Positions 1,671-20,716 of a stretch of 22,585 nt of DNA are shown piece by piece; the first letter of the stretch is position 1, and every line of letters begins with the position of its first letter. The notes beneath the pieces are model-generated. The model ran no database searches. It was not told the DNA's origin and was given only the letters and a program-made list of their open reading frames with translations. Source of the stretch: a virus. A program made the translations under genes and the position numbers. Where the stretch lies: IMG/VR virus record IMGVR_UViG_3300021185_001439, positions 1-22,585 of that record; one strand, written 5' to 3'.

Positions 1671-3209
1671 ATGATCAATAATAACACTAAAATTTATCTA
1701 GACATGGATGGCGTACTTGCAGACTTCTTTGGAGCATGGTCTGAAAAGGCAGGCGTTAAAAATTGGAAAGATATTCCGCCTGATCAAGTTAATACTACAT
1801 TAGATGATATGATAGGAACTGATTTCTTTAACACACTTCCTAAGTTTCCTACTGCTAATACACTAGTTGATTTAGCAAAATCATATACTGGAGAGTATCA
1901 TATTAATAGCTCTCCGTTGCGTAACGACCATGAGAATAGCGGACAATGGAAGAAAGTTTGGATTAAAAGAGAATTAAGCACACAACCTAAAACCATTATA
2001 CTTACAAATACAAAAGAGAAGTATGCAGTAAATCCAGATGGTAGTGCTAATATATTAATTGACGATAGAGGTGCTAACATACAAGCATGGGCTCACGCAG
2101 GCGGCATTGGCCTCAAGTATCAAGCAGATGAAAATACCATTGCTGAACTTAGAGCAAAATTAGATAAAGTTTTTAATATTACTCCAGGGCAAGATCCTAA
2201 ACTAACAGAAGGCAAAATTAAAAAGCATCCTGAAGAAGATGGTGCATACTTACTAGACTACAATGGTAAGGAATACAAAGTTTCAAAATTTCTCAATAAT
2301 AATTTAAGACATGCCGGCGAGTGGAGTATTTTTCAATTAGAAAATAACGAATGGGAATGGGTAGATACTGTAACCGGTAGAAACTATGCTATTGAAAGAA
2401 TACGACAGATAAATGAAGATGCAGTAGCATTAAGAGTTATAGATCCAAAACTACCTAACTGGAAAGAACCAAAAAAGCCTACCAAGCATCAAAGACGCAA
2501 AGCATTAACAAAGCAATACAATAAAACTGTAAAAGAGGACCCAGAGCTTAATGACGTTGAAGTCAGCTTACACGGAGATGCTAAAAAAGGTTATGTATTA
2601 AGTAAAATTGCTGTACCAAAAGAATTGCGTAATACAGGTATTGGCTCTAAGGTAATGAACGACTTAACAGACAAAGCAGATGCAGAAGGTGCTATTATCG
2701 CACTAACACCAGATAACACTTACGGTGGATCTAAAACAAGACTTACACAATTTTATAAACGTTTTGGGTTTGTTCCTAACAAAGGAAGAAATAAAGACTT
2801 TCGTTATAGAGAAACTATGATACGTTATCCTGTTACAGAAGATATAGATTACACTCGACCAGATTTTGATAGCGAATGGGAAGAAGCTATGCGTTATCCT
2901 CAATTTGAAAAAATGGGTAAAGAGGCATGGATTGATCTTGCTAGTAGCGGAAGAATAATTAATATTAATGATGCATTATCTAATTTAATGTACAATACAG
3001 ATGCCGGCGAAAAGTTTAGAAATACATGGCACGAATTAGATGCAGACAAGAAGAAAAGATTTGTACAAGCTCTAGATAAAGAAAGAGTTGAATTACCTAT
3101 TATTGCCCGTTGGCCAGATGGTGGTTTAGAATTAATAGGTGGTAATACTCGTTTAACAGGATTAATGTTAAACAAAGGCGAAGCAAAGGCTTGGATATTT
3201 AACGCATAA
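1671..3209 (+). CDS. Fusion protein: HAD phosphatase-like, GNAT-like, ParB-like domains
   Basis: A 512-residue multidomain protein. Residues 1-168 look like a HAD phosphatase of the 5'(3')-deoxyribonucleotidase type: motif I DMDGVL (Asp11, Asp13) and a late LIDDRGANI (Asp131, Asp132). Residues about 180-250 are a small unknown segment. Residues about 290-388 look like a GNAT acetyltransferase, with the acetyl-CoA loop RNTGIGSKV at 320-328 and a FYKRFGF segment. Residues about 405-512 end in a ParB/sulfiredoxin-like GGNTRL motif at 490-495. The domains are joined by charged linkers containing LTE-G (178-181) and INE-D (247-250), which fit the (L/I)xE rule of T4 prohead protease cleavage. Such a combination could act on nucleotides and proteins early in infection, but activity is inferred only from motifs. 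ATG 1671 lies seven bases after the previous stop. Confidence 0.75.
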   Translation: MINNNTKIYLDMDGVLADFFGAWSEKAGVKNWKDIPPDQVNTTLDDMIGTDFFNTLPKFPTANTLVDLAKSYTGEYHINSSPLRNDHENSGQWKKVWIKRELSTQPKTIILTNTKEKYAVNPDGSANILIDDRGANIQAWAHAGGIGLKYQADENTIAELRAKLDKVFNITPGQDPKLTEGKIKKHPEEDGAYLLDYNGKEYKVSKFLNNNLRHAGEWSIFQLENNEWEWVDTVTGRNYAIERIRQINEDAVALRVIDPKLPNWKEPKKPTKHQRRKALTKQYNKTVKEDPELNDVEVSLHGDAKKGYVLSKIAVPKELRNTGIGSKVMNDLTDKADAEGAIIALTPDNTYGGSKTRLTQFYKRFGFVPNKGRNKDFRYRETMIRYPVTEDIDYTRPDFDSEWEEAMRYPQFEKMGKEAWIDLASSGRIININDALSNLMYNTDAGEKFRNTWHELDADKKKRFVQALDKERVELPIIARWPDGGLELIGGNTRLTGLMLNKGEAKAWIFNA

Positions 3210-4226: not shown

Positions 4227-4520
4227 ATGGGATTTTTTAAAGCAATTAAGTCTTTTTTCAGTGGACCAGAAGAAACCAAAGAAGATAAGAAACTTGCTAA
4301 GGCTTATAGAAAAGTAGTAGAGGTAAAACCATCTGCTATTACTGAGCCAATTGTTTTGGTTACTAAAGCCAAGACTTCAACCGAACTAAAAAAGATGACA
4401 AAGAAAGCACTTGACACATATGCCAGAGAAGAGCATAATATTGAACTCGATGGTCGTTTGACTAAAGATAAGATGATTATTTCTTTTAATAAAGAAATTA
4501 AAAAGAAAAAGAAGAAGTAG
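4227..4520 (+). CDS. Small basic protein with HeH/SAP-like segment
   Basis: A 97-residue Lys-rich protein. Residues about 50-86 (ELKKMTKKALDTYAREEH, then IELDGRLTKDKMI) have the spacing of a helix-extension-helix (HeH/LEM/SAP-type) motif, a small fold that often binds DNA and occurs in phage proteins. The N-terminus (GFFKAIKSFF) is an amphipathic helix. The C-terminus is a run of lysines, encoded by an A/G-only tract at about 4498-4518. AGGAG at 4213-4217 is its ribosome binding site. The stop is directly followed by the next start at 4523. Nucleic-acid binding is plausible but unproven. Confidence 0.6.
   Translation: MGFFKAIKSFFSGPEETKEDKKLAKAYRKVVEVKPSAITEPIVLVTKAKTSTELKKMTKKALDTYAREEHNIELDGRLTKDKMIISFNKEIKKKKKK
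4411..4439 (+). promoter_or_regulatory. Internal sigma-70-type promoter
   Basis: TTGACA at 4411-4416, a 17-base spacer and CATAAT at 4434-4439 (5 of 6 matches). It lies inside the HeH-like gene and would start RNA near 4446, about 75 bases before the gene at 4523. This would let the nucleotidyltransferase-like gene and those after it be transcribed separately. Confidence 0.45.
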
Positions 4521-4522
4521 AT

Positions 4523-5335
4523 ATGTTACTCAGGGATCTATTAGTACCAACAGCAGATGTTGAAACTATTTTAATAAGACGTATACCTATCAACGAAGGT
4601 GGACATGCGTTCAAGGACCCTACAACTAAAGAACTTCTTACTAAACAGAATGCTACGACAGCAGAAGTAGATGCCACCCTAAAAGCATTAGGTTCACGTC
4701 TAGGCATAGACTTAATTAAAAATAAAACAGGGAGTACAATCTATCCAAACAAAATTACAGGCGATGGTGACACTAACTTAGATCCAACTGACTTTATGAA
4801 AGTTGATCCTAGTGAAGATGCTAAAGTTAGTATGAACAAGTTCAGGGAATGGTTGACTAGCAAACTACTTGGAGCAGGCATCCAAGATACACATATTAAA
4901 AAGGGAGGTGACGGTCTTGCAGTTATGTCACCCATTCCCGGAACTGACGAATACTTACAAGTAGACTTAGACATTAGCACACCAGGAGATGGACAATTTG
5001 CTAGGTGGTCTAGAAGAGGAGAGCCAGGATCAGCAAAAGGTGTTTTTAGGCATATACTTAAAAGTGCTATTGCAAGAGGTATTAATCCAAACTTAAAATG
5101 GTCTTTTAAGAATGGTTTAGTAGATGAGGTTACTGGAGAAGCTACAAAAGATCCAGAAACTATTGCCAAGAGATTATTTGGCGATAAAGGAAAAGCAACA
5201 GACCTAGATAATATAGGTGCAATCTTAAATGCACTAAAGAGTTACAGACCTGATATTGCTGATGATGTAATTGAAAAGGCACAACAAGGTGTTGCTAACA
5301 TGAAGTTTGATTATAAATACGGAGAAGAAAAGTAA
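4523..5335 (+). CDS. Putative nucleotidyltransferase-fold protein, leader-tagged
   Basis: A 270-residue protein. In the middle, GSTIYPNKITGDGDTNLD has the shape of the DNA polymerase beta-type nucleotidyltransferase signature (Gly-Ser, about ten residues, then GDxD). A third acidic strand follows as LQVDLDIS (around residue 150). This is the usual three-carboxylate metal site. A basic helix-forming stretch (KGVFRHILKSAIARG) follows. The N-terminus MLLRDLL, then PINE-GG at about 22-27, matches the leader pattern shared with later genes, which suggests packaging in the head. Its weak AAGAAG ribosome binding site lies in the Lys-rich tail of the previous gene. The stop overlaps the next start (TAATG). 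The fold assignment is by motif only. Confidence 0.6.
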   Translation: MLLRDLLVPTADVETILIRRIPINEGGHAFKDPTTKELLTKQNATTAEVDATLKALGSRLGIDLIKNKTGSTIYPNKITGDGDTNLDPTDFMKVDPSEDAKVSMNKFREWLTSKLLGAGIQDTHIKKGGDGLAVMSPIPGTDEYLQVDLDISTPGDGQFARWSRRGEPGSAKGVFRHILKSAIARGINPNLKWSFKNGLVDEVTGEATKDPETIAKRLFGDKGKATDLDNIGAILNALKSYRPDIADDVIEKAQQGVANMKFDYKYGEEK

Positions 5336-5640
5336 TGTGGGATATGTTAACACAATTAGCAACTGATAGGCTATGGATATACACAGGTATTGCTGGAAGT
5401 ATTTTTGGAGCCTTGTTTCTATTTTGGGTTAAAGATACATATATTGCATTTTGGGTGTTTACCAAATGGGATAACATATTAAATTTTCTTGTTGACAGAT
5501 GGGGTTGGACTTGGTTTAAACACGATCCAGAGGGATGGAAAAAGATAAATCCAAAACTAACATCTAAGGTTGAAGATTTAGAAAACCGTATTAGGAAGTT
5601 AGAAAAAACAAAAAAGATTATTATTAAGAATAAAGGTTAA
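5335..5640 (+). CDS. Small membrane protein with C-terminal coiled coil
   Basis: A 101-residue protein. One clear hydrophobic span (about residues 14-32, WIYTGIAGSIFGALFLFWV) is followed by an aromatic-rich stretch (FWVFTKW, WGWTWF) that may lie at the membrane surface. A Lys/Glu-rich heptad-like segment (about 76-95, VEDLENRIRKLEKTKK) forms the end. Its start overlaps the previous stop by one base, indicating translational coupling. No family is recognised. It could be a membrane anchor or a lysis or exclusion protein, but nothing in the sequence decides this. Confidence 0.65.
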   Translation: MWDMLTQLATDRLWIYTGIAGSIFGALFLFWVKDTYIAFWVFTKWDNILNFLVDRWGWTWFKHDPEGWKKINPKLTSKVEDLENRIRKLEKTKKIIIKNKG

Positions 5641-5645
5641 AGTAT

Positions 5646-6683
5646 ATGTTACTAAGAGAGTTACTTAAAGAAGACGAAGAAACTAAACAGGCTATTATTG
5701 CAAAGATTTCTGGCCTTCAGGCAGATAACGAACAGGATGCTGAGATACTTGATAGAATTTTTAGAACATTGCATAATGATGATATATCAGGTAAGATTGC
5801 ACAAGCATTTGGACCTCCAACAGAAGATGATACTTTCCAACTTGAACCTCTTTTAAAAACACTTACACAAATTATATTCCATGCAGGTGTTAATTATAAA
5901 AGCCTAAGTACATTTCTAAGCAAACTAGAAAAAGGCAATGTTGTTGATGTTGGCAAAATTGTTAATCCGGGTGTAGGAAGTGTTAGAGACTTCTTTGGCG
6001 GTGACGAAACAGCAACACGAGTATTTCAATCTATGGCAACATTAGGTGCAGGTAAAAAACAAAAAGGCCCTGGTGAATATGCACTTGCTATGCTATCTAA
6101 TAAAATCAGATTAAAAAGCGATGGTGGAGATATTGAAGCCGCAGGTAAAGGGATTGAAGTTAAAGCCGAAACATCTACTGGAGGCGGACGTCTTGGTGAA
6201 GGTGGACCTACTAACATAGTAGCAAAAGAATACTGGAGCCAACTTCCTAGTATGGCCCAACACTTTGAGAACGGTGGTAAAGGACTTGGACTTAAACGAG
6301 CAGTTCCTTACCTTGCATTAGATCTTCCACTTAACGATCCTGAAAAGAAGAAACAAAGACAAGATATACTTACAAAATGGTTTTCACAAGTCTTTAAAGA
6401 CCCAGCTCCGTTTGTTGCCGCAATGATGCAAGACGATCCGGTTGTAGCAGAAAGAATGTACGGTAAAGCAAACTATGAGGCTTATAAAGCAAATTATGGA
6501 TGGGACGGATTATTAGGCATTAACTTTCCACAATTAAAATATGTGATGGTTAATACAGGTGACGAGTTTGTTAAGATGATAGAAGCAGGACATTTCTCTA
6601 GTCTTAGCATAAGTTTAGTTCCTAGTAGTGCTAGGCCGTCAGAGGTATATGCACAATTAAGTCTTACAAAAGCAAAAGCATAA
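5646..6683 (+). CDS. Leader-tagged protein with PD-(D/E)xK nuclease-like motif
   Basis: A 345-residue protein. Residues 141-182 carry GPGEYALAML, then GGDIEAAGKGIEVKAETS and a downstream GGGRLG. The acid residues Glu144 and Asp162 with Glu171-x-Lys173 reproduce the order of the PD-(D/E)xK (restriction-endonuclease-like) active site, a fold of DNA-cutting enzymes. The N-terminus MLLRELLKEDEE nearly copies that of the gene at 4523 and contains an L-K-E site followed by Asp. AAAGG at 5634-5638 is the ribosome binding site for ATG 5646. The gene ends in a hairpin that closes this transcription unit. Nuclease activity is inferred from motif order only. Confidence 0.6.
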   Translation: MLLRELLKEDEETKQAIIAKISGLQADNEQDAEILDRIFRTLHNDDISGKIAQAFGPPTEDDTFQLEPLLKTLTQIIFHAGVNYKSLSTFLSKLEKGNVVDVGKIVNPGVGSVRDFFGGDETATRVFQSMATLGAGKKQKGPGEYALAMLSNKIRLKSDGGDIEAAGKGIEVKAETSTGGGRLGEGGPTNIVAKEYWSQLPSMAQHFENGGKGLGLKRAVPYLALDLPLNDPEKKKQRQDILTKWFSQVFKDPAPFVAAMMQDDPVVAERMYGKANYEAYKANYGWDGLLGINFPQLKYVMVNTGDEFVKMIEAGHFSSLSISLVPSSARPSEVYAQLSLTKAKA

Positions 6684-6695
6684 CTCGTATGCTTT
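6675..6695 (+). terminator. Hairpin at gene end, possible terminator
   Basis: AAAGCATA at 6675-6682 pairs perfectly with TATGCTTT at 6688-6695 around the loop ACTCG. The stem overlaps the stop codon of the PD-(D/E)xK-like gene. The only T-run is within the stem, so it is a weak intrinsic terminator at best. Its place directly before a late promoter supports a transcription-unit boundary. Confidence 0.4.
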
Positions 6696-6701
6696 AAACA
6701 C

Positions 6702-6718
6702 ATAAACTTTAGGTTTAT
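6702..6718. terminator. Second AT-rich hairpin in same gap
   Basis: ATAAAC at 6702-6707 and GTTTAT at 6713-6718 form a six-pair stem with a five-base loop, just after the first hairpin. It is AT-rich and weak on its own. Two hairpins in tandem in an 83-base gap make a termination or RNA 3'-end role plausible. Confidence 0.25.
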
Positions 6719-6734
6719 ATCATCAACATGTTAA

Positions 6735-6742
6735 TATAAATA
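6735..6742 (+). promoter_or_regulatory. T4-type late promoter, perfect TATAAATA
   Basis: An exact match to the T4 late-promoter core, which is read by the gp55/gp33-modified polymerase. It lies 24 bases before ATG 6767, with the AAAGGAG ribosome binding site between. This is the best evidence in the window for T4-like late transcription, and marks the 6767 cluster as late. Confidence 0.65.
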
Positions 6743-6766
6743 AAGTGTAAGCACAAAGGAGCCGCT

Positions 6767-7183
6767 ATGAATAAATTTAATATTGCGGTTGCTATGATGA
6801 TAGGTATATTAATAGCTTTTGCTAGTCAAAGTAGTGCCGCCCCAACTGATAACGAAATTAAACCGGAAGCACCATCGCAACCGGTCGTACCACAGCCACA
6901 ACAATCTTTTAAACCAGTGATTTGCCAAGTCACGGCAATAGTTGTTGATAATCTCAAAAACAAATATAACGAATTACCAGTATTTGTTGGAGACGGCCAG
7001 GATCAAGCAGGAACTAGTTATGTTGTCTCTCTAAATCGAGACAATGGGGAATTTACTATTGTACAATTTTCAGCAGACAGAGGTACTGCATGTATTATTG
7101 GTTCTGGTACAGGAGCAAAAGTAACTATGATTCCATCAGAGAAAACGAAAGGTATGCCTGTTATTTTTCCAATAAGTAATTGA
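6767..7183 (+). CDS. Secreted protein with signal peptide
   Basis: A 138-residue protein with a clear Sec signal peptide: MNK, a hydrophobic core (about 6-19, IAVAMMIGILIAFA), then SQSSA with likely cleavage after Ala24. A Pro/Gln-rich linker (about 25-48) leads to a compact, beta-rich domain with two cysteines (Cys53, Cys109) that could form a disulfide in the periplasm. The domain resembles small uncharacterised periplasmic proteins of proteobacteria, which suggests capture from a host. AAAGGAG lies just ahead of the ATG, and the late promoter at 6735 precedes it. A role in lysis or envelope change is only a guess. Confidence 0.75.
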   Translation: MNKFNIAVAMMIGILIAFASQSSAAPTDNEIKPEAPSQPVVPQPQQSFKPVICQVTAIVVDNLKNKYNELPVFVGDGQDQAGTSYVVSLNRDNGEFTIVQFSADRGTACIIGSGTGAKVTMIPSEKTKGMPVIFPISN

Positions 7184-7208
7184 CAATGACAGACAAATAT
7201 ACTATAAT
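7180..7208 (+). promoter_or_regulatory. Perfect-consensus sigma-70 promoter
   Basis: TTGACA at 7180-7185, exactly 17 bases, then TATAAT at 7203-7208: a full 12-of-12 match. It straddles the stop of the secreted-protein gene and the start of the small membrane gene (ATG 7186). RNA would start near 7215, after that ATG, so this promoter can express the gene at 7340 and those beyond, but not the membrane protein from its first codon. Confidence 0.7.
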
Positions 7209-7383
7209 GTTTTATATGCTTAACACTTTCTATTTGACAATAGTTATAGGAATGGTGTTAGGGTTTTATATTTTCTTGGGTTCATACTTCTTGATTATTA
7301 CAATAATGTGTGTTCCTTTCTGGATTGCTGGAGAATTATATGGGCAAGAAAAATCTAATTTGGAACCTACAAGAAGAGATTAA
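7186..7383 (+). CDS. Small hydrophobic membrane protein
   Basis: A 65-residue protein with two close hydrophobic spans (about 7-27 and 29-46) and a charged tail ending NLEPTRRD. The ATG lies 3 bases after the previous stop; a TTG two codons upstream is less likely because it overlaps that stop. No ribosome binding site is evident, so it is probably translated by coupling. The 3' end overlaps the next gene by 44 bases. Its size and two spans would fit a holin-like or other small membrane protein, but no family is recognised. The embedded promoter makes it possible that this frame is partly incidental. Confidence 0.5.
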   Translation: MTDKYTIMFYMLNTFYLTIVIGMVLGFYIFLGSYFLIITIMCVPFWIAGELYGQEKSNLEPTRRD

Positions 7384-8074
7384 TTACAATCAAGATTTTT
7401 TTATTCCACTTGACTTAAAGTTAGATCCAGAAGAGAAGAATAACTTTGCAATGCATTTTGCAAAAGAGTATCTACCTGGAATGAGCAAGATGACAAACTT
7501 GTCTGTTGCTGATGGTAATGTAAAGGAATTTTTCCCAAACTCATATAAACAAGCCAACGACTTGCTAAGGCCATTAGGTTTATGTGCTAGAGCTATGACT
7601 TTATTTGTTTCTCCTCCTACTCCTGATATAGAACAATGTAGAAACGTACATATAGATTCTACTAAAACAAGAGAAGGAGATGTATTTCCTTTAGAAGCAA
7701 GACTTAGTTATTACGAAATGGCAGAGGTACCAGGGATTATAAGATGGTATCCTTCAAACAAAGATGAGGTTGAGTATGTTAAACTTCCTCAAGCTGATAG
7801 TGCTATATTTGAAGGAAAGAATAGTAGAATATATGCAACAGAATGGATAACCGCATTAAGACAAGGCAGACTTTCTTGGGAGGATGCACCAGACTACATA
7901 CACTCTACAACTACTTCTGTACCTAGTGCATTACTAAGAACTAACCTACCTCATCATGTTATACAAGGTCCAGGTGTTAGAATAACAGTTTCATGTCAAA
8001 TACAATGGATACATTCAAAGAGTCCCGTAGGTACATGGCAACACATACGGGATAAGTATCTATATGAACAATAA
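7340..8074 (+). CDS. Putative 2OG-Fe(II) oxygenase-like protein
   Basis: A 244-residue protein. VHIDS (His104, Asp106) gives an HxD iron site. Near the end HHVIQGPGVRITVSC gives a second histidine (205 or 206) followed by an Arg-x-x-x-Ser pair (Arg214, Ser218), the arrangement for binding 2-oxoglutarate. The segments between look like beta strands (ARLSYYEMAEVPGIIRWYP). This suggests the aspartyl/asparaginyl-hydroxylase-like branch of the double-stranded beta-helix oxygenases, and differs from the oxygenase at 3238. I chose ATG 7340, with GGAG six bases ahead, over the GTG at 7310. The perfect sigma-70 promoter at 7180-7208 would drive it. The function is by motif only. Confidence 0.55.
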   Translation: MGKKNLIWNLQEEINYNQDFFIPLDLKLDPEEKNNFAMHFAKEYLPGMSKMTNLSVADGNVKEFFPNSYKQANDLLRPLGLCARAMTLFVSPPTPDIEQCRNVHIDSTKTREGDVFPLEARLSYYEMAEVPGIIRWYPSNKDEVEYVKLPQADSAIFEGKNSRIYATEWITALRQGRLSWEDAPDYIHSTTTSVPSALLRTNLPHHVIQGPGVRITVSCQIQWIHSKSPVGTWQHIRDKYLYEQ

Positions 8075-8093
8075 AAAACAAAGAGAATTATCT

Positions 8094-8240
8094 ATGGATT
8101 ACTGTAACAACTGCGGTCGGGGTAGCCACTGTGGTGTGCCAGTAATGGAAGACTTTAGACGAGAGCCATATAATCATGGTATCGAAGGACAAATATGTGT
8201 TTGTAAGTATTGTATGTGCGGAAGATGTGCAACTAAGTAA
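8094..8240 (+). CDS. Short Cys-rich, probably zinc-binding protein
   Basis: A 48-residue protein starting MDYCNNCGRGSHCG. It has two cysteine clusters: CNNCGRGSHC near the N-terminus and CVCKYCMCGRC at the C-terminus, nine cysteines in all, separated by a charged middle (EDFRREPYNHGIEG). This fits a small zinc-ribbon or knuckle. ATG 8094 has AGAG eight bases ahead. An in-frame ATG at 8064 would add ten residues and overlap the previous gene by 11 bases. Proteins of this look occur in marine T4-like phages, as I recall, without known function. Confidence 0.65.
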   Translation: MDYCNNCGRGSHCGVPVMEDFRREPYNHGIEGQICVCKYCMCGRCATK

Positions 8241-8271
8241 ATTACAAGAAGGTATTAACCACTTACATTTG

Positions 8272-8279
8272 ACTAAATA
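8272..8279 (+). promoter_or_regulatory. Possible late promoter, ACTAAATA
   Basis: ACTAAATA in the 78-base gap before the gene at 8319, 39 bases ahead of its ATG. A second weaker match, CTTAAATA, lies at 8295-8302. A TATAAT at 8278-8283 overlaps but has no fitting -35 box. Either late match would start the long cluster 8319-15105. Confidence 0.35.
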
Positions 8280-8318
8280 TAATGAAAGTAGTTACTTAAA
8301 TAGACGAGGAATAAAACT

Positions 8319-9266
8319 ATGAAATTTAGAGATATTGTACATGAAGACGGAGAGGGTGGCGGTGGCGCCGCTAGTACTTCTACTGCTTCTGCTGATGTTG
8401 GTGGACTTGCTTATCCTTTATTTGTTAAAGGTAAAACCCGCAGACAAAAAAGAAAAAATGCAAAAAAAGCAGTAGGACAAAAGAATTACGGTGGACCTAG
8501 TTATATAGGTAAAGGCGTATATGAATCCGAAGGTGCAGATCTAATTGAAGCTGAAATTAATGAAATATTTGGTCTAGGCCAAAAGAAAAATCCAGCTGTT
8601 AAGCAAAGTAGTGTATATAGAGTACTACAACAAATTTCTACAAACACAGATCCTTCGCCAAAAGATGTTAAACTAGATGACGGACAGATTATTGCTGTTA
8701 CTCCAGATCAAGCAACAAGAATTGTTAACGCCGCAACATTACAAGGTAGTGCTGGTGGATGGGAAAAACAATTAGGCGACTGGGAAATTTTTAAAAAAGT
8801 TGTTCAGTTTGCTAAAGTACCTTTAGCCAAACTTCGTAAAAGTACACCAGGAAAACATTGGACAGAAGAGAGTGCAAAATTAGGTGAAGCTAACATAGTT
8901 GACCATGATGGTGTTATTTACAAAATGGATAGACAAGATCCAATGAACAAAACCGAAGTAGCAGTATTAGGTGGAGCAGGACGTTATACATTAGAAGGGC
9001 TAAGAGAGAAAGCAAGAACCGAAGCACAAGCACTAGCAAATGATCTCAAAGAAGGTGGAGCAAGTGGAATGACATTTCTTACAGCCAAACAAAATATCTA
9101 TCAATTATCCAATACTATAGAAACTATTGTATCAGCATACAACCAACTAGAACGTATTAGACGTAAAGGCGGAAGAGGATCAAGAGGAATTACAAGAGAA
9201 CATATTGAACCAGTACAGATTGGTATTAAAGTTTTAACTGAAGCAAAGGAAAAGTTTAAGCTATGA
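8319..9266 (+). CDS. Hypothetical leader-tagged protein, probable virion cargo
   Basis: A 315-residue protein of unknown function. MKFRDIVHEDGEGGGG matches the leader pattern: a basic-hydrophobic start, V-H-E, then Asp-Gly. A Gly/Ser/Thr/Ala-rich linker (10-29) follows and then a very basic patch (about 38-51, KGKTRRQKRKNAKK) that could bind DNA. The rest is mixed alpha/beta, with a helical C-terminus (about 225-315). GAGG at 8305-8308 precedes the ATG. Its stop overlaps the next start in ATGA, so the two are translationally coupled. A packaged DNA-associated protein is plausible but not shown. Confidence 0.6.
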   Translation: MKFRDIVHEDGEGGGGAASTSTASADVGGLAYPLFVKGKTRRQKRKNAKKAVGQKNYGGPSYIGKGVYESEGADLIEAEINEIFGLGQKKNPAVKQSSVYRVLQQISTNTDPSPKDVKLDDGQIIAVTPDQATRIVNAATLQGSAGGWEKQLGDWEIFKKVVQFAKVPLAKLRKSTPGKHWTEESAKLGEANIVDHDGVIYKMDRQDPMNKTEVAVLGGAGRYTLEGLREKARTEAQALANDLKEGGASGMTFLTAKQNIYQLSNTIETIVSAYNQLERIRRKGGRGSRGITREHIEPVQIGIKVLTEAKEKFKL

Positions 9267-9964
9267 TACAGATAAGACTCATGCATGAAGGTAAATTAAT
9301 TAAAAAGATCTCTAGCAGAGTCAGTGAATCTGTTGTGCTTCAACACTTAGATAATTTTGTAGGGGATTATGATGAAATTCATTATTACGGAAACGTGACA
9401 GAAGACTTTAAAGATACAATGAAAAAAGTAGGTAAGAAGATTGTTCCTGCCGCAATGGCGGCTGGTATTGCAATGGGTGCCGCAGATAATGCAGGAGCAC
9501 AGACATTTGATTTGGATCAAAATATTGGTTCACTTATTGGACAGGTATTCTCACCAAACTATCAACAATTAAAAAGAGAACGTGATGCTAATAGACGTGT
9601 TGAAAGAAGAGCATGGGAAGCAAAACGTAGAGAGCTTGACAGAGCAAGAGTTAGAGCCGCAAGAGAAGCTGGTAAGAGAGAAGCTGAAAGAATATATGGT
9701 GCACCTTCGTCAAATAAAAAGAGTGCTGTAGTTTATGATCAGGCCCGTCTTTCAAAAAGCGGAAGAACTATGTACTTGTATAAACCAAATGGACAAGTAC
9801 TTGCAATTAAAACAAAAGACTTGGAATGGATTGCAGGAGACTCTAAGAGAATGGGACATTACCTTAGTCCTACAGGAAAAGTATACTATGTTAAGAATGG
9901 TGTTCCGTTACCAGAAGGAAGAGGAAGAGCTACACATAAAAAAATAAAGGACTTAGTCAAATGA
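9263..9964 (+). CDS. Hypothetical protein, hydrophobic segment and charged coiled coil
   Basis: A 233-residue protein. The start MIQIRLMHEGKLIKK has M-H-E followed by Gly, a weaker version of the leader pattern. Residues 53-80 (KKVGKKIVPAAMAAGIAMG and on to NAGAQ) look like an internal signal or membrane-insertion segment: basic flank, small hydrophobic core, and Ala-Gly-Ala before Gln. Residues about 100-150 are an Arg/Glu-rich, probably coiled-coil, helix. The C-terminal 70 residues are compact and beta-rich (TMYLYKPNGQVLAI and after). Starts and stops overlap at both ends (ATGA). No family is recognised. A packaged protein that touches the membrane on injection would fit. Confidence 0.6.
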   Translation: MIQIRLMHEGKLIKKISSRVSESVVLQHLDNFVGDYDEIHYYGNVTEDFKDTMKKVGKKIVPAAMAAGIAMGAADNAGAQTFDLDQNIGSLIGQVFSPNYQQLKRERDANRRVERRAWEAKRRELDRARVRAAREAGKREAERIYGAPSSNKKSAVVYDQARLSKSGRTMYLYKPNGQVLAIKTKDLEWIAGDSKRMGHYLSPTGKVYYVKNGVPLPEGRGRATHKKIKDLVK

Positions 9965-10545
9965 AAAATATGAGACAATTAATTAATGCCGTTATGGTTA
10001 CAGAAGGCACCTGGGCTTTACCAACTACTGATGATCAAGTAGCTAAGATGAATATGTTAATGCAAAATCCTATAGCATTAGGTGACGGTGGCGAAAATGC
10101 AACAAATCAAATTTCTTTTGCATTTGGTGACGATACATTGTATGACAATTTAGGAGATGCTGGAGATCAAGATCCAACTGCAGATGCTAGGCCAATCATA
10201 ATGAAATGGTTAGATGGTGTAGTAGGAACTTTTGGTGTTGAATACGACAAGTATATGTCTGCTATAGCTGATGCAAACAGAATGGGACAAATGGAATTAC
10301 CTCTAGACGAAGATAGTGTTGATGATGATAAGACTGATCAATTAAACAACCTCTTCATGTCAGTAGATGCATTAAAGCAAGAAGTTGAAGAACTAGCAAA
10401 ACTAGATACTCAGGAAGGTGCTTCAGGGGTTGGAGACTTGCATGATCAGATTACTACAATGTACAATCTATTAGATAAATTTGATGATGTAATTGACAGG
10501 TCAACTAATATTGTACCAACAGGATTAAGACAAGGAAAGTATTAA
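9961..10545 (+). CDS. Hypothetical acidic leader-tagged protein
   Basis: A 194-residue acidic, mostly helical protein, rich in Asp. The N-terminus MKNMRQLINAVMVTEGTW closely resembles that of the next gene (MNMRKLINIVEA), with V-T-E then Gly as a possible cleavage site. The C-terminal half (KTDQLNNLFMSVDALKQEVEE and on) is heptad-like. The start overlaps the previous stop (ATGA), and AAGGAC at 9948-9953 is its ribosome binding site. A second in-frame ATG at 9970 is possible. No family is recognised. Confidence 0.6.
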   Translation: MKNMRQLINAVMVTEGTWALPTTDDQVAKMNMLMQNPIALGDGGENATNQISFAFGDDTLYDNLGDAGDQDPTADARPIIMKWLDGVVGTFGVEYDKYMSAIADANRMGQMELPLDEDSVDDDKTDQLNNLFMSVDALKQEVEELAKLDTQEGASGVGDLHDQITTMYNLLDKFDDVIDRSTNIVPTGLRQGKY

Positions 10546-10547
10546 TT

Positions 10548-13364
10548 ATGAACATGCGTAAACTTATTAATATTGTCGAAGCTGATCCAGCAGTAGGAAC
10601 TATACCTGCTTCTGGTGCTACTCCAGTAACGGCTAGTGTTAAGCCTACGCCACCAGCTAAAGGTTCCGCCGTTCGCAAACAAGAAAAAGATGCCGCACAA
10701 GATCAATCAGCTTTACCAGGTGGTAAAGAAGATCCAAATGCAGTTGAACTTGATAAAGATAACGGATTAGATAAAGGTACACTTGATGCTATTGAAAAAG
10801 CAGGTGTTACCATTAATGTAAAAGAAGCAGATATTAATTCACGCGATGACGATATTTTAAAAGATATACTTGCAAATAATCAAGAGGCGTGGAATAATTT
10901 TAAAGAAGGAAATGACATTACAGATAATGATGATTTCTATCAACAATTAGTTAGTCACTTTATTAGTACAGATCAACTTTCACAAGATGATGTTGATAAA
11001 GGGGTTGCTGTTGAACGTATTACAGGATGGCTAGACACACTAGCTAACAACGTGGAGGTTGTAGAAATGGACGACAACGATTTTGAAAAGTACGGTGACG
11101 AAGCCGATAGAGATGAAAAGGCATCTGATAGTGATCGTAAAAATGCTGATAAGAATGTTATCATGCAGATACGAAGAGCCGCAGATGGACAAAAACCTAC
11201 AAAAATATTTGTAGATGATGGTGAGATTATATTAGACCCAGCAACTGCTAAGAAAGTAAACTATGCATTTGATAATATTCGCCCACAAGCAAAAGGTCAA
11301 TTTCAAGGTATGCTACAAACCAAAGCAGGCCTAACTGATGTGATTAAGATGGTTGACGGCAAAACAATTCCAGAGGCTACCTCCACAGCCGAATCTAAGA
11401 TTGCTGTCAAAGAAGATAATACAGCTAATATGCCTTTCATGGAAGTCATATATCAATACGTAGATGAAGAAGAAGATTCGGATGGTACTATGTACCTTGA
11501 TAGTAGTAGATTAATTGCTGATGTTGAGTATATGATTAAACAAGACAATCCAGGTGTAGAAATTATGTCTGAAGATGTTCAAGAATCTAGAATGGGATTT
11601 AAAGACTTAGATAAACTAGGCAAAGAAAATGCAAGTAAAGTTGACCAAGAGGCACGCCGTCAAGGTAGTGCTGATATGGAGCCTGGTGATGCAGATCAGC
11701 TACGTTATAAGATTGCTAAAAAGATGGGTCTTGCAGAAAATGAAGGAAGTATTAACGAAGGAAGTCTTAACGAAGGAACTATGTCTAATGACGTTGATTC
11801 AGATGAATTTATGAACTTTCTTCAAACAAAAAATTTAGCAGTTGGTCCAGACCCGTTTGCAAATGCTGACGGCGATGAGTATGGCGAAGAAGAAATGGTA
11901 AAAATTATGAAGATGGGTGCAGAAGATAAAGTTGGTGCATTCTTTTTTGATGATGAGCTATGGGACGACCTGCATGTATTAAGAACAGAGCAAGGTGCAG
12001 ATGCAAATGCTATGCCATTAATTGTAAAGAGAGCTAAAGAGTTATTTGTTGATGAATCAGTTCAAGAAGAAAAGGCTCCTCGTACTGCAAAAGATATTGC
12101 ACAAGAGATTAGACAAAAAGAATTAGAACTACAGAAACTATACAAAACAGCAACTATCAAGGATTTAGAAGGTGCTAAAGACTTAATGAATAGAACTAAA
12201 TCATTAGACCGTATTAAGATTGGCGAGAGCTACGAAGGTGCTACAGCAGAAGAAGTAGCTGATGCAATTAAGCAACGTATGTTTGTTAATGGTATGATAG
12301 AGAAAGCACTTGAAAAAGGACAAGATCCTCAGACAATTATGTTAGCAATCGAAGATGTTGCACAATTTCACGAAGGTGCAGAAGAGCTAGGTTCAAGTGA
12401 TATTAGCATTATGTGTAAAGAAGTTATGCAACAATTAGGCGGAATGGACGAAGCATATATTGATGATAATCAAATGGATTCAATTTACGAAGCCGCAGAT
12501 ATTAAACCAAAGTTAACATACGAAGACATTACTAGAGAATTAGAAGAAGGCCAAGTAGTTGATAAAGATATGGCATATCAAATTATGATGATAGGCGATA
12601 ACGACGCAGAATTATATCAACAACAATTCCTTCCAATCATTAAAAACTTAATGAGAAAACGTGATAAAGGCATTTACGAACCTGAAAAGGCTGTTAAGTT
12701 ATGGCGTTATTGGGTTGACAATGTTGTTAAGAAACATGCCAAGGATCTTGGAATTGTATCGTCTAGACAAGTTAGCGGAGCCACTCGTAATGAGGTTGCT
12801 AAAGAAAAAGAAGAACAAGAACGTATGGAAATGGATTTAGGTAATTGGGACAATAACAAGTCAGCTGGAACTGCTAAAGAATCAGTTGAACAAGTTAACG
12901 AAGCAGAAATGTATAAGTCATTAGAAGATGTATATCCAGCAGGTCCTACAGAGATTTGGTTTTGGAAACAAGACAATGGTAGAGATTTTATGATGGGAAT
13001 GAAATGGTTATCTGAACGTGGTGTAGAAGTTACTAAAGCCACATTACAAGATACACATGTAAAGATTGGTACTATTGCAGAAACTGATCCAGAAAAAGTT
13101 TATGGTATGATGCAAGGCGAAAACTGGTCACCAGAAGGTGAAGCAAGAGAGCTTATTAGTAAGTCCGGTTCTGGACATACTAGTATGAGTGTTGGAGATG
13201 TTCTCGTTATTGGAGGCAAACTACAAATGGTAGATAGATTTGGATTTGTTAATCCAGAAGATGAGAAAGAAGTTTCCATGGCAGAGAGTACACTTTACTC
13301 ACCAGAAAAAACAGCCGCACTAATAACAGATAAGATCTTTGAGGAGACTAAAAATGCAAAATAA
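10548..13364 (+). CDS. Very large acidic leader-tagged protein
   Basis: A 938-residue acidic protein of unknown function. It opens MNMRKLINIVEADP, with an I-V-E site followed by Ala after ten residues, then a Pro/Ala/Thr linker (about 11-45). The body appears to be several small helical modules joined by acidic linkers. Around 395-410 a short repeat (INEGS, LNEGT) gives clustered (L/I)xE-G sites. Around 700-735 a helix (EPEKAVKLWRYWV) resembles a module that recurs, as I recall, in proteins of marine T4-like phages. The large size and modules suggest a structural or internal head protein, perhaps processed into pieces. Its last 11 bases overlap the next gene. Confidence 0.65.
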   Translation: MNMRKLINIVEADPAVGTIPASGATPVTASVKPTPPAKGSAVRKQEKDAAQDQSALPGGKEDPNAVELDKDNGLDKGTLDAIEKAGVTINVKEADINSRDDDILKDILANNQEAWNNFKEGNDITDNDDFYQQLVSHFISTDQLSQDDVDKGVAVERITGWLDTLANNVEVVEMDDNDFEKYGDEADRDEKASDSDRKNADKNVIMQIRRAADGQKPTKIFVDDGEIILDPATAKKVNYAFDNIRPQAKGQFQGMLQTKAGLTDVIKMVDGKTIPEATSTAESKIAVKEDNTANMPFMEVIYQYVDEEEDSDGTMYLDSSRLIADVEYMIKQDNPGVEIMSEDVQESRMGFKDLDKLGKENASKVDQEARRQGSADMEPGDADQLRYKIAKKMGLAENEGSINEGSLNEGTMSNDVDSDEFMNFLQTKNLAVGPDPFANADGDEYGEEEMVKIMKMGAEDKVGAFFFDDELWDDLHVLRTEQGADANAMPLIVKRAKELFVDESVQEEKAPRTAKDIAQEIRQKELELQKLYKTATIKDLEGAKDLMNRTKSLDRIKIGESYEGATAEEVADAIKQRMFVNGMIEKALEKGQDPQTIMLAIEDVAQFHEGAEELGSSDISIMCKEVMQQLGGMDEAYIDDNQMDSIYEAADIKPKLTYEDITRELEEGQVVDKDMAYQIMMIGDNDAELYQQQFLPIIKNLMRKRDKGIYEPEKAVKLWRYWVDNVVKKHAKDLGIVSSRQVSGATRNEVAKEKEEQERMEMDLGNWDNNKSAGTAKESVEQVNEAEMYKSLEDVYPAGPTEIWFWKQDNGRDFMMGMKWLSERGVEVTKATLQDTHVKIGTIAETDPEKVYGMMQGENWSPEGEARELISKSGSGHTSMSVGDVLVIGGKLQMVDRFGFVNPEDEKEVSMAESTLYSPEKTAALITDKIFEETKNAK
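11742..11780 (+). repeat. 15-base tandem repeat within the 938-residue gene
   Basis: GAAGGAAGTATTAAC (11742-11756) is followed by GAAGGAAGTCTTAAC (11757-11771) and a partial third copy GAAGGAACT. The repeat keeps the frame and encodes EGSIN, EGSLN, EGT, multiplying a possible (I/L)-N-E|G cleavage site in a linker. Confidence 0.75.
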
Positions 13365-15105
13365 AGAATTTAATAAAATGTATGCTAAAATAAGAGATCT
13401 TAATGATGATACTATTTTAGATGAAGGAGCCTGGTCAGATCTGTGGCATGGTACCAGACAGGAAAAGAAATCAGACCAAGCAACAAAAGATGCTTATGAT
13501 GCATATAGATTAGAAAAGATTACTAAGAAGTTTGAGAAAGACGGTTTATCTCCTGAAGATGCTCGCAAGTATGCATACCGTAAAGTGTACGGTGCTCCGG
13601 TAGAAGAAGCAGATTCAATTGACTTCGCAAAAAAGAAGCAATTGAAACTACCAGATAATTTTTTTAGAAATATTGCGATGATGGATAATCCCCATGCAGA
13701 AATAGAAAGATTACTAAATGATCCAAGCAGTCAAGGTGAAGTAGTTAGAAATTATTATACTTCTTATTCACAAGAATATGAGTTAGATCCTGTAAAAGAT
13801 AAAGAAGAAATTATTGATTATGTTGTCCAAGATTTTGGAGATACAACAGTTGAAGAAGCAGAACCTCTACAAATTGGAACAACATCAGAAATAGAAGACA
13901 AATACTATCCGATCACATATACTGCTGATATTTCATATGATAGCAGAGATCGTATGGAAGTTGATAATATAGTAATACACGATAAAAATGGAGAGATGTT
14001 ACCACCAGACCATCCAGTATATCAAGCAGAGGTAGGATTTATTGAAGACGAAGTAAAACGTACTGGAGAAGAAGATGGAGAAGTAGTTGGTGAAAGCATT
14101 ACTAACGAAGCAGAACAGATTAATAATGAGTTAAATAGAATTCTAAAACTTTCTGGACTGTCTGAAGCTACAAGTCCGCCTGAAGTAATTAATCCTACTA
14201 AAGATAGTTCGCCAGCAGATCTCAAAGCCGCAATCAAGTATGCAAAATACATGAAGGCAAAGATGGATACTGACAAAGCAACAGCAACATATGATAAAGA
14301 AATTGATCAATTAGAAGGTTGGTTAAAATCTAAGTCAACAATGAAAACAGAAGGCAAGATGTCAGGTGTGCACCAAGACGCACAAGAAAATGACAAAGAA
14401 GATTTTATTGCAATGCACAAAGATCACATGTCAGCAGAAGAAGCTGGCAAGATGTGGGACGAAGTACAAAAACAAATGAACGAAGATTTTGATAGTAGTC
14501 ACCCTGACTTTCCTAAAGCACAGGCTTACGCCAGTGAAAAAGATGCTGTAAAAGATATAATTGCAAAGCATCCAGAAGCCGCAAAGACACTTCAGCAATC
14601 CGGTGATGTATTTTCTATTTACGACACAGACTTATATTTAGATTTGTTTGATCACTTTGCAGAGGACATGCCTTATGGAACACAAAAAGGTAGAGACGGA
14701 GATCCAGTAGAGTGGATCAATGATGAATTAGATACAATGGGAATACTTGAAAGTATTGTTGCTTATAAAGTTGAAGAAGGTACACAGAAACCTTTTGTCT
14801 CATTAACTAAAGGTATTTGGACTGTTACTGATGGTAATGGAAATGATGTTAATGGCTTTGATAATAAAGAAGAAGCCTTTCTATATCTCGAAAAACATTA
14901 TGATGAGTTATTAGATCCTCAACCAATTAGATTAAAACGTACACAATCTGATATTGACTATATGAAGCAGATGGATAACTCACACGCATTAATATACGGA
15001 GAGAGCAGAAACACTTACTTCCATAAAGGAGATAAGGAATTTAAAGTTATCCCTGAAGGTTATAAGAAAACTAAAAACGGAACAATTACTAAAGTATTGA
15101 AATAA
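13354..15105 (+). CDS. Large acidic hypothetical protein, probable virion cargo
   Basis: A 583-residue acidic protein. I chose ATG 13354 because GAGGAG lies seven bases ahead (13341-13346); a TTG at 13339 overlaps that ribosome binding site. Its start lies 11 bases inside the previous gene. Near the N-terminus TILDEGAW (about 20-27) has an L-D-E followed by Gly and resembles VTEGTW in the gene at 9961. The middle contains EQINNELNRILKLSGLSEA, with an L-S-E followed by Ala, a helix I have seen in proteins of marine T4-like phages. Several acidic linkers separate modules. The C-terminus is basic (KKTKNGTITKVLK). No catalytic motif is evident. Confidence 0.6.
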   Translation: MQNKEFNKMYAKIRDLNDDTILDEGAWSDLWHGTRQEKKSDQATKDAYDAYRLEKITKKFEKDGLSPEDARKYAYRKVYGAPVEEADSIDFAKKKQLKLPDNFFRNIAMMDNPHAEIERLLNDPSSQGEVVRNYYTSYSQEYELDPVKDKEEIIDYVVQDFGDTTVEEAEPLQIGTTSEIEDKYYPITYTADISYDSRDRMEVDNIVIHDKNGEMLPPDHPVYQAEVGFIEDEVKRTGEEDGEVVGESITNEAEQINNELNRILKLSGLSEATSPPEVINPTKDSSPADLKAAIKYAKYMKAKMDTDKATATYDKEIDQLEGWLKSKSTMKTEGKMSGVHQDAQENDKEDFIAMHKDHMSAEEAGKMWDEVQKQMNEDFDSSHPDFPKAQAYASEKDAVKDIIAKHPEAAKTLQQSGDVFSIYDTDLYLDLFDHFAEDMPYGTQKGRDGDPVEWINDELDTMGILESIVAYKVEEGTQKPFVSLTKGIWTVTDGNGNDVNGFDNKEEAFLYLEKHYDELLDPQPIRLKRTQSDIDYMKQMDNSHALIYGESRNTYFHKGDKEFKVIPEGYKKTKNGTITKVLK

Positions 15106-15117
15106 GGATCTAAGTAT

Positions 15118-16437
15118 ATGGCATTTTGCAGGTTACCCTGGCAGGGATTAATGATCACTCCACTTGGCGACTTTAGACTCTGTGCATTAACTAACGGGTT
15201 AGATTACAATCAGGGCATGTCGACAGATGAAGATGGCAAGCTCATGAACATAATGACTCATTCCCCAAATGAAGGTTTAAACGGAAAGTGGCATCGTGAA
15301 GTAAGAAAGAACGATGTGCAATCTGATGGCTCTTGGCATGACATATGTAGTTGTTGCAGAGATAGAGAAATTGCTACTGGTAGTGACATTAAACACATTG
15401 CCGCTAGTAGAAGACAAAGTATGGAACGTAGAAATCCTAGCACACATATTGTTGATGGTAGCACTTATAAAGACGTTAAAATGGACAAAGACGGATATGT
15501 AGATTGGATGCCTACTACACTAGATATTAGATTTGGTAACCTGTGTAATATGGCTTGTGTACAATGTGGACCTAACTATAGTAACAAATGGTATGAGGAC
15601 TGGGTAGGCTTTTATGGAGAAAATGCTCCATGGGGTTTTGGACGTAGCAGACAACGTTTATCTAGAAACGAGCATAATAAACTTGTTAACAAACAAGAAG
15701 TAAAATGGTGGGAGACACAAACATGGTGGGACAAATTTGACCAGATGCTTCCTAACTTAGAACACATTTACCTCACAGGAGGCGAACCTATGATTGTTCC
15801 TGCACATGATGAGATGCTTGATCGTATTATTGCTTCAGGTCGTGCTAAAGATGTTTACTTAGACTACGACACTAACCTAAGTGTTATTAATACTAAGTTA
15901 GCAAAACGTTGGGACCACTTCAAGCATGTAGAGATTGCTGGTAGTATTGATGCAAGTGAAGACAATTATGAATTTGTAAGACATGGTGGTAAGTGGGAAA
16001 AGTTTGATGAAAACGTTACCCGTATTAAAGAATTTGAGAAGAACGGAGTTGTCAAACTTTATAGACTTACTGCTTGTATGCAACCTACAACAATATTTTC
16101 TATATTACAAACTGAACAATATTGTATGAACAAAGGTATTCCGTTTCAAATAAGATTTGTAGATAGTCCTAAGATGCATAGTATAATGAGCTTACCTCGT
16201 TCAGCTAAAGAAGAAATTATAGAGATATATAGTAAAGTAGATACTATTACATCGAGACTTGTAGTTGAATGGACTACTGATCACTTAGATGAGAAATACG
16301 AAAGTCCAGAAGATGTTAAACGTTATGTAAGAATTATGAATTATCTAGATACATCTCGTGGTACAGACTGGAAAGTACAGACAAAAGGTACATGGGAAAT
16401 GCTAAGTAAGCATTGTAACTTAGGAGAATTAAAATAA
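15118..16437 (+). CDS. Twitch-domain radical SAM protein (paralogue A)
   Basis: A 439-residue radical SAM enzyme. FGNLCNMACVQC (Cys143, Cys147, Cys150) is the CxxxCxxC cluster motif and TGGEP (220-224) the SAM-binding motif. An N-terminal cysteine set (Cys4, Cys22, Cys77, Cys79/80) in a SPASM/twitch-like arrangement probably binds a second cluster. LPRSAKEEI is shared with the minus-strand paralogue ending at 20691, and the two align along their whole length. AAGGAT (15104-15109) precedes ATG 15118. The stop overlaps the endolysin start by one base. Such proteins recur in marine T4-like phages without known substrate; peptide modification or carbohydrate/cofactor chemistry are possible. Confidence 0.85.
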   Translation: MAFCRLPWQGLMITPLGDFRLCALTNGLDYNQGMSTDEDGKLMNIMTHSPNEGLNGKWHREVRKNDVQSDGSWHDICSCCRDREIATGSDIKHIAASRRQSMERRNPSTHIVDGSTYKDVKMDKDGYVDWMPTTLDIRFGNLCNMACVQCGPNYSNKWYEDWVGFYGENAPWGFGRSRQRLSRNEHNKLVNKQEVKWWETQTWWDKFDQMLPNLEHIYLTGGEPMIVPAHDEMLDRIIASGRAKDVYLDYDTNLSVINTKLAKRWDHFKHVEIAGSIDASEDNYEFVRHGGKWEKFDENVTRIKEFEKNGVVKLYRLTACMQPTTIFSILQTEQYCMNKGIPFQIRFVDSPKMHSIMSLPRSAKEEIIEIYSKVDTITSRLVVEWTTDHLDEKYESPEDVKRYVRIMNYLDTSRGTDWKVQTKGTWEMLSKHCNLGELK

Positions 16438-18664: not shown

Positions 18665-19932
18665 AAGTTGGATTTATTGGACTAGGTAAACTAGGAATGC
18701 CTTGTGCAGAAGTTATGGCAGAAAAATATGATGTTACAGGATACGATATTGCAAAAGTATCTTCGATTAAAGTTAGTGTAAGACATACTATTAAAGATAC
18801 TGTAAAAGACAGAGACATTATATTTGTTGCTGTACCTACTCCACATGATCCTGCTTACGGAGGAAGTACTCCAATTGCAGATAAAGAACCAAAAGACTTT
18901 GATTATAGTATAGTTAAAAGAGCATTAGATGAAATTGATCTTCATGTAAACAAAACACAGTTAGTAGTTCTTATTAGTACAGTATTACCTGGAACAGTTA
19001 GAAGTGAATTAGTAGACCATATTAAACATGCTCGTTTTATTTACAATCCTTATTTGATTGCTATGGGTAGTGTTGCCTGGGATATGGTAAATCCTGAATG
19101 TTTAATTATAGGAACAGAAGACGGAACAGAAACTGGTGATGCTAAAATACTAGTTGATTTTTATAAACCTTTATTAGAAAACAATCCAGAAATTAATATT
19201 GGTACCTGGGACGAAGCTGAAGCAATTAAAGTTTTTTATAATACTTTTATTTCAGTTAAGATTGGTTTAGTCAATATGATACAAGACGTTGCAGAAGCAA
19301 ATGGAAATATTAATGTTGATGTTGTTACTGATGCATTAAAGAAAGCAACTCAACGTATTGTTGGTCCAAAATATATGACTGCTGGAATGGGAGACGGAGG
19401 AGCCTGCCATCCTAGAGATAATATTGCACTACGTTTTCTTGCACAGAAATTAAATTTAGGATATGATCTATTTCATTCTATTATGCAGTCTAGAGATATG
19501 CAGGCGAAAAAAATGGCAGAACGTTTACTTGAACTATCAACAGAATATAACTTGCCTATTGTTATACATGGTCGTGCATATAAGCCAGGAGTTGAATATA
19601 CAGTTGGTAGTTATAGCGAACTAGTAGCACAATATGCCGCACACGAATTAAATCAAGTATACTATGTTGATCCATTAACTGGTGACAACTTACCTAAAAA
19701 GAATATGAAAGCAGTTATATTATTAGCACACAATGAACAAGTAACATATGCTGGTACGGGTGTAAAAGCAACAGAATCAGGATATTATTTTAAGTTTGCT
19801 AAAGGTAGTATAGTTGTTGATCCTTGGAGGACAACAAAAGAGATTCCAGGTTGTGCTGTTGTACACTACGGTAATCCTAGAAAGATATGGTCTGCTCAAA
19901 GTCAAAGGAAGAAATTTCTTGGTCTGTTTTAA
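18661..19932 (+). CDS. UDP-glucose/GDP-mannose dehydrogenase family protein
   Basis: A 423-residue NAD-dependent sugar-nucleotide dehydrogenase, which oxidises UDP- or GDP-sugar to the uronic acid form. KVGFIGLGKLG at the N-terminus is the Rossmann NAD-binding GxGxxG. GGACHPRD holds the catalytic cysteine (Cys249). EAIKVFYNTFIS supplies the active-site Lys and Asn. The C-terminal domain begins about residue 295 (IVIHGRAYKPGVEYTVGS). I chose ATG 18661, overlapping the previous stop as ATGA, over the ATG at 18646. With the glycosyltransferase-like gene it suggests sugar modification of the cell surface, virion or DNA. Its 3' end overlaps the opposite-strand carbamoyltransferase gene by 56 bases. 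The exact sugar cannot be told. Confidence 0.85.
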   Translation: MKVGFIGLGKLGMPCAEVMAEKYDVTGYDIAKVSSIKVSVRHTIKDTVKDRDIIFVAVPTPHDPAYGGSTPIADKEPKDFDYSIVKRALDEIDLHVNKTQLVVLISTVLPGTVRSELVDHIKHARFIYNPYLIAMGSVAWDMVNPECLIIGTEDGTETGDAKILVDFYKPLLENNPEINIGTWDEAEAIKVFYNTFISVKIGLVNMIQDVAEANGNINVDVVTDALKKATQRIVGPKYMTAGMGDGGACHPRDNIALRFLAQKLNLGYDLFHSIMQSRDMQAKKMAERLLELSTEYNLPIVIHGRAYKPGVEYTVGSYSELVAQYAAHELNQVYYVDPLTGDNLPKKNMKAVILLAHNEQVTYAGTGVKATESGYYFKFAKGSIVVDPWRTTKEIPGCAVVHYGNPRKIWSAQSQRKKFLGLF

Positions 19933-20716
19933 GAAGTAATACTAATAGAGCCATTCTAATATATAATCCATTTTCCATTTGCTCAAAATATTTTGCTCTT
20001 GGATCTTTATCAAACCAAACAGGTATTTCTTCGTTGCGTGGGAACGGATGCATAACTATTGCATCTTCTGGTATGTGATGTATATGTTCTTTCTTCATAC
20101 TGTAACTACCACTACTTCCTCTTTCTTTTTGTACTCTCGTTAGATAGTAAACATCACTCTTTGGCCATATACTCTTATCGTATGTATCTATAAAATGCTT
20201 TTTGCAATTAGGTAATGCTTTATCTAAACTATGTACTGTTCTGCCGTTTTCTATATCTCCAATAAATGTAATTGTAAGATCTTTGATCTTGTTAAATTTT
20301 TTATAGATTGTATACAAATCTAAAAGTGTTTGTGTAGGATGTTCTCCATTGCCATCACCTGCGTTTATTATAGGAACCTTACTTACTTTTGATGCTATTG
20401 ATGCATCACCTGCTTGTTGACTTCTCAATACAATTAAGTCGCAATAGTTAGACATTGTAATAATAGTATCTTCTAGATTTTCTCCTTTAGACACCGAACT
20501 ATAGTTTACATCATTAATTGAAATTACTTGTCCGCCAAGTTTATACATTGCACTAGCAAAAGAACTGCTAGTTCTTGTACTTGGTTCGTAAAATAAGTTA
20601 GTTATTATTTTACCTTTTAAACTTTCTTGAAATTCTGTAGGAGCTGACTTTATATTATTTGCTAATTTAAATATTGAAATAAAATCAATTTTATTCAGTT
20701 GAACTAGGTGTTGCAT
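19877..20716 (-). CDS. pyrB: Aspartate carbamoyltransferase, compact form
   Basis: A 279-residue transcarbamoylase that joins carbamoyl phosphate and aspartate, the first committed step of pyrimidine synthesis. The carbamoyl-phosphate site is complete: STRT 46-49, Ser74 and Lys77 of the mobile loop, Arg98, HPTQ 126-129. Aspartate-site residues are present: GRTVHS 158-163, TRVQKER 193-199, HPFPR 223-227 (Phe where E. coli has Leu267). From GRTVHS to TRVQKER, Arg159 to Arg194 are 35 residues apart, against 62 between Arg167 and Arg229 in E. coli. Part of the aspartate domain is therefore missing. The gene's start overlaps the radical SAM gene upstream and its end overlaps the dehydrogenase gene. 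No regulatory chain gene is seen. Confidence 0.85.
   Translation of the reverse strand: MQHLVQLNKIDFISIFKLANNIKSAPTEFQESLKGKIITNLFYEPSTRTSSSFASAMYKLGGQVISINDVNYSSVSKGENLEDTIITMSNYCDLIVLRSQQAGDASIASKVSKVPIINAGDGNGEHPTQTLLDLYTIYKKFNKIKDLTITFIGDIENGRTVHSLDKALPNCKKHFIDTYDKSIWPKSDVYYLTRVQKERGSSGSYSMKKEHIHHIPEDAIVMHPFPRNEEIPVWFDKDPRAKYFEQMENGLYIRMALLVLLLKTDQEISSFDFEQTISF

Follow-up and report, generated by a model that had tools for sequence, protein, structure and literature searches.

Short N-terminal leaders in a marine phage gene set resemble the T4 capsid-targeting sequence and are enriched in related phages

Seven genes of a T4-related marine phage, present on the 22.6-kb virus fragment analyzed here (the whole stretch is referred to as the window), start with short leaders, and we demonstrated that leaders of this kind occur beyond chance in the group of related phages. 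The best-supported reading is a T4-like head tag that has expanded in this phage group. The leaders probably represent a variant form of the capsid-targeting sequence (CTS) of T4 and would serve the docking, trimming, and delivery of the tagged proteins. All seven open reading frames, their N-termini, and the Glu positions were located exactly where the preliminary description of this DNA had put them (Table 1). No literature describing such a leader set was found among open PMC papers.

Table 1. Leaders and analyzed bodies of the window. The p values were obtained with a profile trained without the window families and scored against internal Met positions.
Feature	Position	Strand	Sequence or basis	Profile p
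Leader of gene 4523-5335	4523..4597	+	residues 1-25, MLLRDLLVPTADVETILIRRIPINE then GG	0.023
4523 body: predicted pol beta-superfamily nucleotidyltransferase	4598..5335	+	AF2, Foldseek
Leader of gene 5646-6683	5646..5672	+	residues 1-9, MLLRELLKE then DE	0.003
5646 body: conserved in 14 viral loci	5673..6683	+
Leader of gene 8319-9266	8319..8345	+	MKFRDIVHE then DG	1e-4 (top score of the window)
Possible leader of gene 9263-9964	9263..9289	+	MIQIRLMHE then GK	0.31 (not significant)
Leader of gene 9961-10545	9961..10005	+	MKNMRQLINAVMVTE then GTW	0.24
Leader of gene 10548-13364	10548..10580	+	MNMRKLINIVE then AD	0.34
Weak leader of gene 13354-15105	13354..13425	+	MQNKEFNKMYAKIRDLNDDTILDE, ending AKIRDLNDDTILDE, then GAW	0.08 (marginal)

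The window was connected to its larger relatives via shared genes rather than by one continuous contig. The search with the 5646 protein led to the 14 loci, some of them on contigs of 127 and 132 kb. One of these loci (G002) carries a gp17-like terminase with the nearest named relatives in PA5oct, Phosso, 2.275.O, Atu_ph07, and 121Q/GAP32, hence the group is T4-related and close to jumbo phages. Relatives of the G002 terminase or of the 4523 protein were found on contigs of 180, 132, and 192 kb, each with a PF03420 protease.

A pool of 2.5 Mb from related uncultured phages, comprising 2,264 distinct N-termini from 204 sources, was used to look at the leader frequency; genes were called by a simple script, and some starts may be wrong. 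The strict leader M[KR][ILFVA]x[DE][ILVFM] was present at 101 of the 2,264 N-termini versus 12 of 11,109 internal Met positions, and shuffling of residues 2-20 produced a mean of 3.6. These 101 N-termini precede 42 unrelated body families, a count that carries more weight than the p value since the sequences are related, not independent, and the expression was shaped by the data. Once an N-terminus started with M[KR][hydrophobic], the motif continued in 101 of 205 cases (12 of 294 internal sites). The second pattern, with positions taken from the published mutagenesis of the IPIII tag and residue classes chosen by us (hydrophobic residues at i and i+3, I/L/V at i+4, E at i+6), fitted 95 of the 2,264 N-termini versus 25 of the 11,109 internal Met positions (shuffle mean 7.5), and 60 of these 95 had E at position 9. 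The counts of strict leaders per genome were modest: nine in PA5oct, six in G025, three each in 2.275.O and 121Q, two each in G019 and G034, and one each in T4 (first 112 kb), SPO1, and phiKZ. None was detected in Syn9 or HTVC008M, although both have gp21-like proteases. A broad expression applied to single contigs showed mild enrichment, and for this reason the pooled and trained tests were adopted. The comparison with shuffled sets, made in the relatives, bears out the earlier proposal of a shared leader at the level of the phage group.

Within the window, the seven leaders combined differed from internal Met positions with p = 6e-6 on the profile trained on other families, a value carried by 8319, 5646, and 4523. 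Four of the seven (13354, 9961, 9263, and 10548) were above the p<0.05 threshold. The preliminary claim of similar leaders on all seven genes held for the three best scorers and marginally for 13354; as judged from sequence, 9263, 9961, and 10548 would belong to the set through the conservation of the cut site or a second leader type. The full T4-derived pattern was fitted by 5646 and 8319, the latter also fitting the strict one, and incompletely by the remaining five. In 11 orthologs of 5646, E9 was kept in at least 90% of sequences and the remaining leader residues varied. The ortholog of 9263 at 38% identity starts with MITLKILHE↓GK (the arrow marks the putative cut site). The second leader type, MR[KNQ][LF]IN..., takes in 9961 and 10548 and is present in relatives too (e.g., MRNLINLLE-D and MRKLINLLLSE-A); its expression was picked after inspection of the data and is exploratory. 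To say that Glu follows soon after the start is imprecise for 4523, where it is residue 25, and for 13354, where it is residue 24. Besides the seven, the endolysin gene at 16437 also scored on the profile (p = 0.006).

Ten N-terminal residues of IPIII are sufficient for packaging in T4; of these, positions 4 and 7 function in targeting and positions 8 and 10 in processing, with L/I-x-E as the signal after which gp21 cuts (PMC9026906). The likeness to the T4 CTS was confirmed, the typical leader of the group repeating the IPIII determinants shifted by one (3, 6, 7, 9). As in IPI-III, a short N-terminal leader precedes unrelated bodies, with predicted hydrophobic targeting residues three apart and putative [LI]-x-E processing sites; T4 IPI has a spacer before ITE↓A, like window 4523 and 9961. 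In contrast to IPI-III, most leaders of this group are one residue shorter, V is common at P3, far more families are tagged, and the seven window bodies lack Pfam or PHROG matches. Judged from these Pfam and PHROG searches, none of the seven bodies was recognized as a relative of IPI, IPII, IPIII, or Alt. The T4 gp61.1 gene (18966-19130) itself starts with MKTFKEFIKE, resembling the internal-protein tag.

The residues at P3/P1 in gene order were I/E, L/E, V/E, M/E, V/E, I/E, and L/E; as had been stated, only some sites are strict, four of the seven having [LI]xE and the other three V, M, and V at P3. E at position 9 occurred in 40% of leader families versus 6% of other N-termini, and hydrophobic-x-E at positions 7-20 in 32 of 42 leader families versus 713 of 2163. 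In relatives, the domain behind the 9961 leader forms the C-terminal portion of a larger protein encoded adjacent to gp17. In this gp17-downstream family, the site is internal, [ILV]-x-E↓[GSA]-[TSA]-W, in approximately 45 distinct sequences (the list includes a few unrelated matches); P3 is nearly always I, L, or V, used alike, and P2 is free. The 13354 site fits E↓[GSA][TSA]W. Nearly all relatives of 4523 have [ILV]-x-E↓GG after a leader of 5 or 25 residues, one pair (L186/L187) being without the E. We abandoned the idea that 4523 acquired its I-x-E↓GG together with the leader, since most relatives begin with M-x-[ILV]-x-E↓GG and have no longer leader, so the conservation may partly reflect the fold. 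The E-GG and E-G-T-W patterns would fit a gp21-like rule accepting V, and the same residues could be retained for folding, not cutting. Sites of the [IL]xE[GAS] type were also counted in the 10548 body (7 versus 2.4 in shuffles) and in the 13354 gene (4 versus 1.2).

The alternative that survives best, though we consider it improbable, assumes that the leader docks proteins to the prohead core, or to a different part of the virion, and stays uncleaved, with the Glu incidental or related to the fold. Neither the leader enrichment nor the virion annotation of PA5oct (see below) requires cleavage, 10 of the 42 leader families are without a site at positions 7-20, and the Glu is not universal, homologous proteins encoded between the portal and scaffold genes having E, Q, or R at its place. 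Against this alternative stand two independent families in which P3 and P1 are conserved and P2 is free, the excess of E9, and the fact that the equivalent arrangement is cut in T4 (PMC9026906).

The link to the virion comes from PA5oct, whose record marks proteins detected by ESI-MS/MS. Seven of the nine strict-leader proteins bear this annotation, compared with 93 of 423 CDS overall (p = 5e-4), and the excess persisted among proteins of 60-490 aa (p = 3e-4); two strict-leader proteins are without it. The annotation stands for the virion and resolves neither head from tail nor cleavage. By analogy, the window proteins may be virion components as well. The PA5oct protein immediately after the portal starts with MKINDIITE, and a leader-like start is shared by the small proteins encoded between the portal and scaffold genes of PA5oct, 2.275.O, 121Q, G019, and G025. 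It is this head-gene position, together with the agreement of the tag anatomy with the T4 head tag, that makes it quite unlikely that the tag directs proteins to the neck, tail, or baseplate instead of the head interior, an address that the mixing of head and tail proteins in the PA5oct data would allow. The slightest chance is left for coincidence through wrong starts or a composition bias of gene starts (K/R and hydrophobic codons 2-3 in AT-rich phages), which, despite several window leaders failing the trained profile and the mild single-contig enrichment, is largely refuted for the phage group, with the exception of 9263 and 13354, by the shuffles, the continuation of the motif at N-termini, and the variability of both synonymous codons and K/R.

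The CTS-like reading calls for a prohead protease. The gp21-like enzyme was found in relatives and not in the window: PF03420 is absent from the window contig, a fragment only, and from contigs near-identical to it, all of them fragments, and it is present in PA5oct (at 84079-84711, with a Gp23 capsid protein, both confirmed), T4, Syn9, HTVC008M, 2.275.O, Phosso, 121Q, and the three uncultured contigs mentioned above. The window phage presumably possesses such a protease. Diverged gp21-like proteases also cut N-terminal propeptides of phiKZ and SPN3US head proteins, including ejection proteins, after x-x-E (PMC10052503, PMC9026906). The SPN3US propeptides differ from the present leaders in length (20-24 to 254 residues) and in the listed sites, A-x-E (PMC10052503), and in phiKZ, the short leader is not enriched (1 in 369 genes).

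Another short peptide, L/I/M-x-x-L-[AS]-G-[ILVM], recurred in the pooled, redundant proteins of the group (142 versus 14 in shuffles). It is present at residue 263 of the window 13354 gene product and in PA5oct at 127321, 131940, and 155221; in G019 (62976) and G025 (56872), it is the very C-terminal end of the protein at the scaffold position. Several PA5oct proteins with MS annotation have it, and its enrichment in single genomes is small. It may represent a further peptide that binds the core.

No Pfam or PHROG match was found for any of the seven leader proteins. The 4523 body was modeled by AF2 with pLDDT of 88.7, and leader residues 1-23 were disordered (pLDDT <50). The modeled body resembled pol lambda/beta/mu in Foldseek (E~2e-5, TM ~0.45) and is thus predicted to adopt a pol beta-type nucleotidyltransferase fold and to have the corresponding activity. 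The 5646 protein gave no match in Pfam or PHROG and no credible one in the PDB; the model built with 11 orthologs (pLDDT 51) was unusable, no fold search being made from it, and the profile search of solved structures gave weak, chance-like matches, mainly to designed repeat proteins, so that the PD-(D/E)xK-like D162...E171-V-K173 stays a lead only. Tagged proteins of relatives included a CCA-adding-type enzyme (PolyA_pol, E=8e-34), DUF6267, and a cytidylyltransferase-like protein barely above its cut-off; weaker matches were an NT5C-like protein and Kinase-PolyVal, both below cut-off, and LPD23 (E=0.026). Like the polyvalent phage-injected proteins (PMC5512222), some tagged bodies of relatives are enzymes or have weak polyvalent-protein domains; the difference is that most tagged proteins of this group are single short bodies and the domain matches are weak.

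Several neighboring genes were also inspected. The 5'-nucleotidase-like gene of the window (1671-3209) has no leader, and in its relative on G036 (20591-21130), MRANELIKATPE precedes the shared domain. A small gene lies directly 5' of the 4523-type nucleotidyltransferase in the window (4227-4520), G033 (5765-6034), and G035 (9134-9412). The window copy, with a lysine-rich stretch and a weak PHROG match to a prohead protease inhibitor (E=2.5e-5), was not accepted as such; other unrelated PHROG families matched it at weaker E. In G025 (122552-124357), the 4523-type domain is followed within one protein by a K-W-D-G segment with putative likeness to ligase-type nucleotidyltransferases. Three radical SAM-type genes were present within 22 kb (617-1663, 15118-16437, and 20691-22127), and many related ones in G001.

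Altogether, we infer for the window proteins a location in the head, reached by docking to the core, then trimming and injection. During head assembly, the leader, whose hydrophobic residues are spaced by three, frequently preceded by K/R and flanking D/E, would dock the individual proteins into the core of the prohead. Cutting by the prohead protease after [ILV]-x-E would follow, and the mature protein would remain with the packaged DNA and, by analogy with T4, be delivered with it. As the tag is short and may be fused to varied bodies, the group could load many unrelated proteins, probably including enzymes acting on nucleotides and nucleic acids. More tentatively, and with doubts on our part, the portable tag may load a large, changing enzyme cargo (pol beta-type nucleotidyltransferase, CCA-adding enzyme, nucleotide/cofactor enzymes, possibly kinases), trimmed by the prohead protease and injected alongside the genome, ready to act in repair or counter-defence; some virion proteins may alternate between existing as an internal segment freed by cleavage, as in the gp17-downstream family, and being encoded by a tagged gene of their own, as in 9961.

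If the CTS-like reading is right, it would provide a sequence rule that predicts head-carried proteins, many of them currently without annotation, across a large, uncultured group of phages related to T4. The injected T4 proteins Ip1-3, which have only the leader in common, inhibit host restriction enzymes (PMC12373910); hence, the tagged sets would be candidates for injected counter-defence or repair functions, active before phage gene expression.
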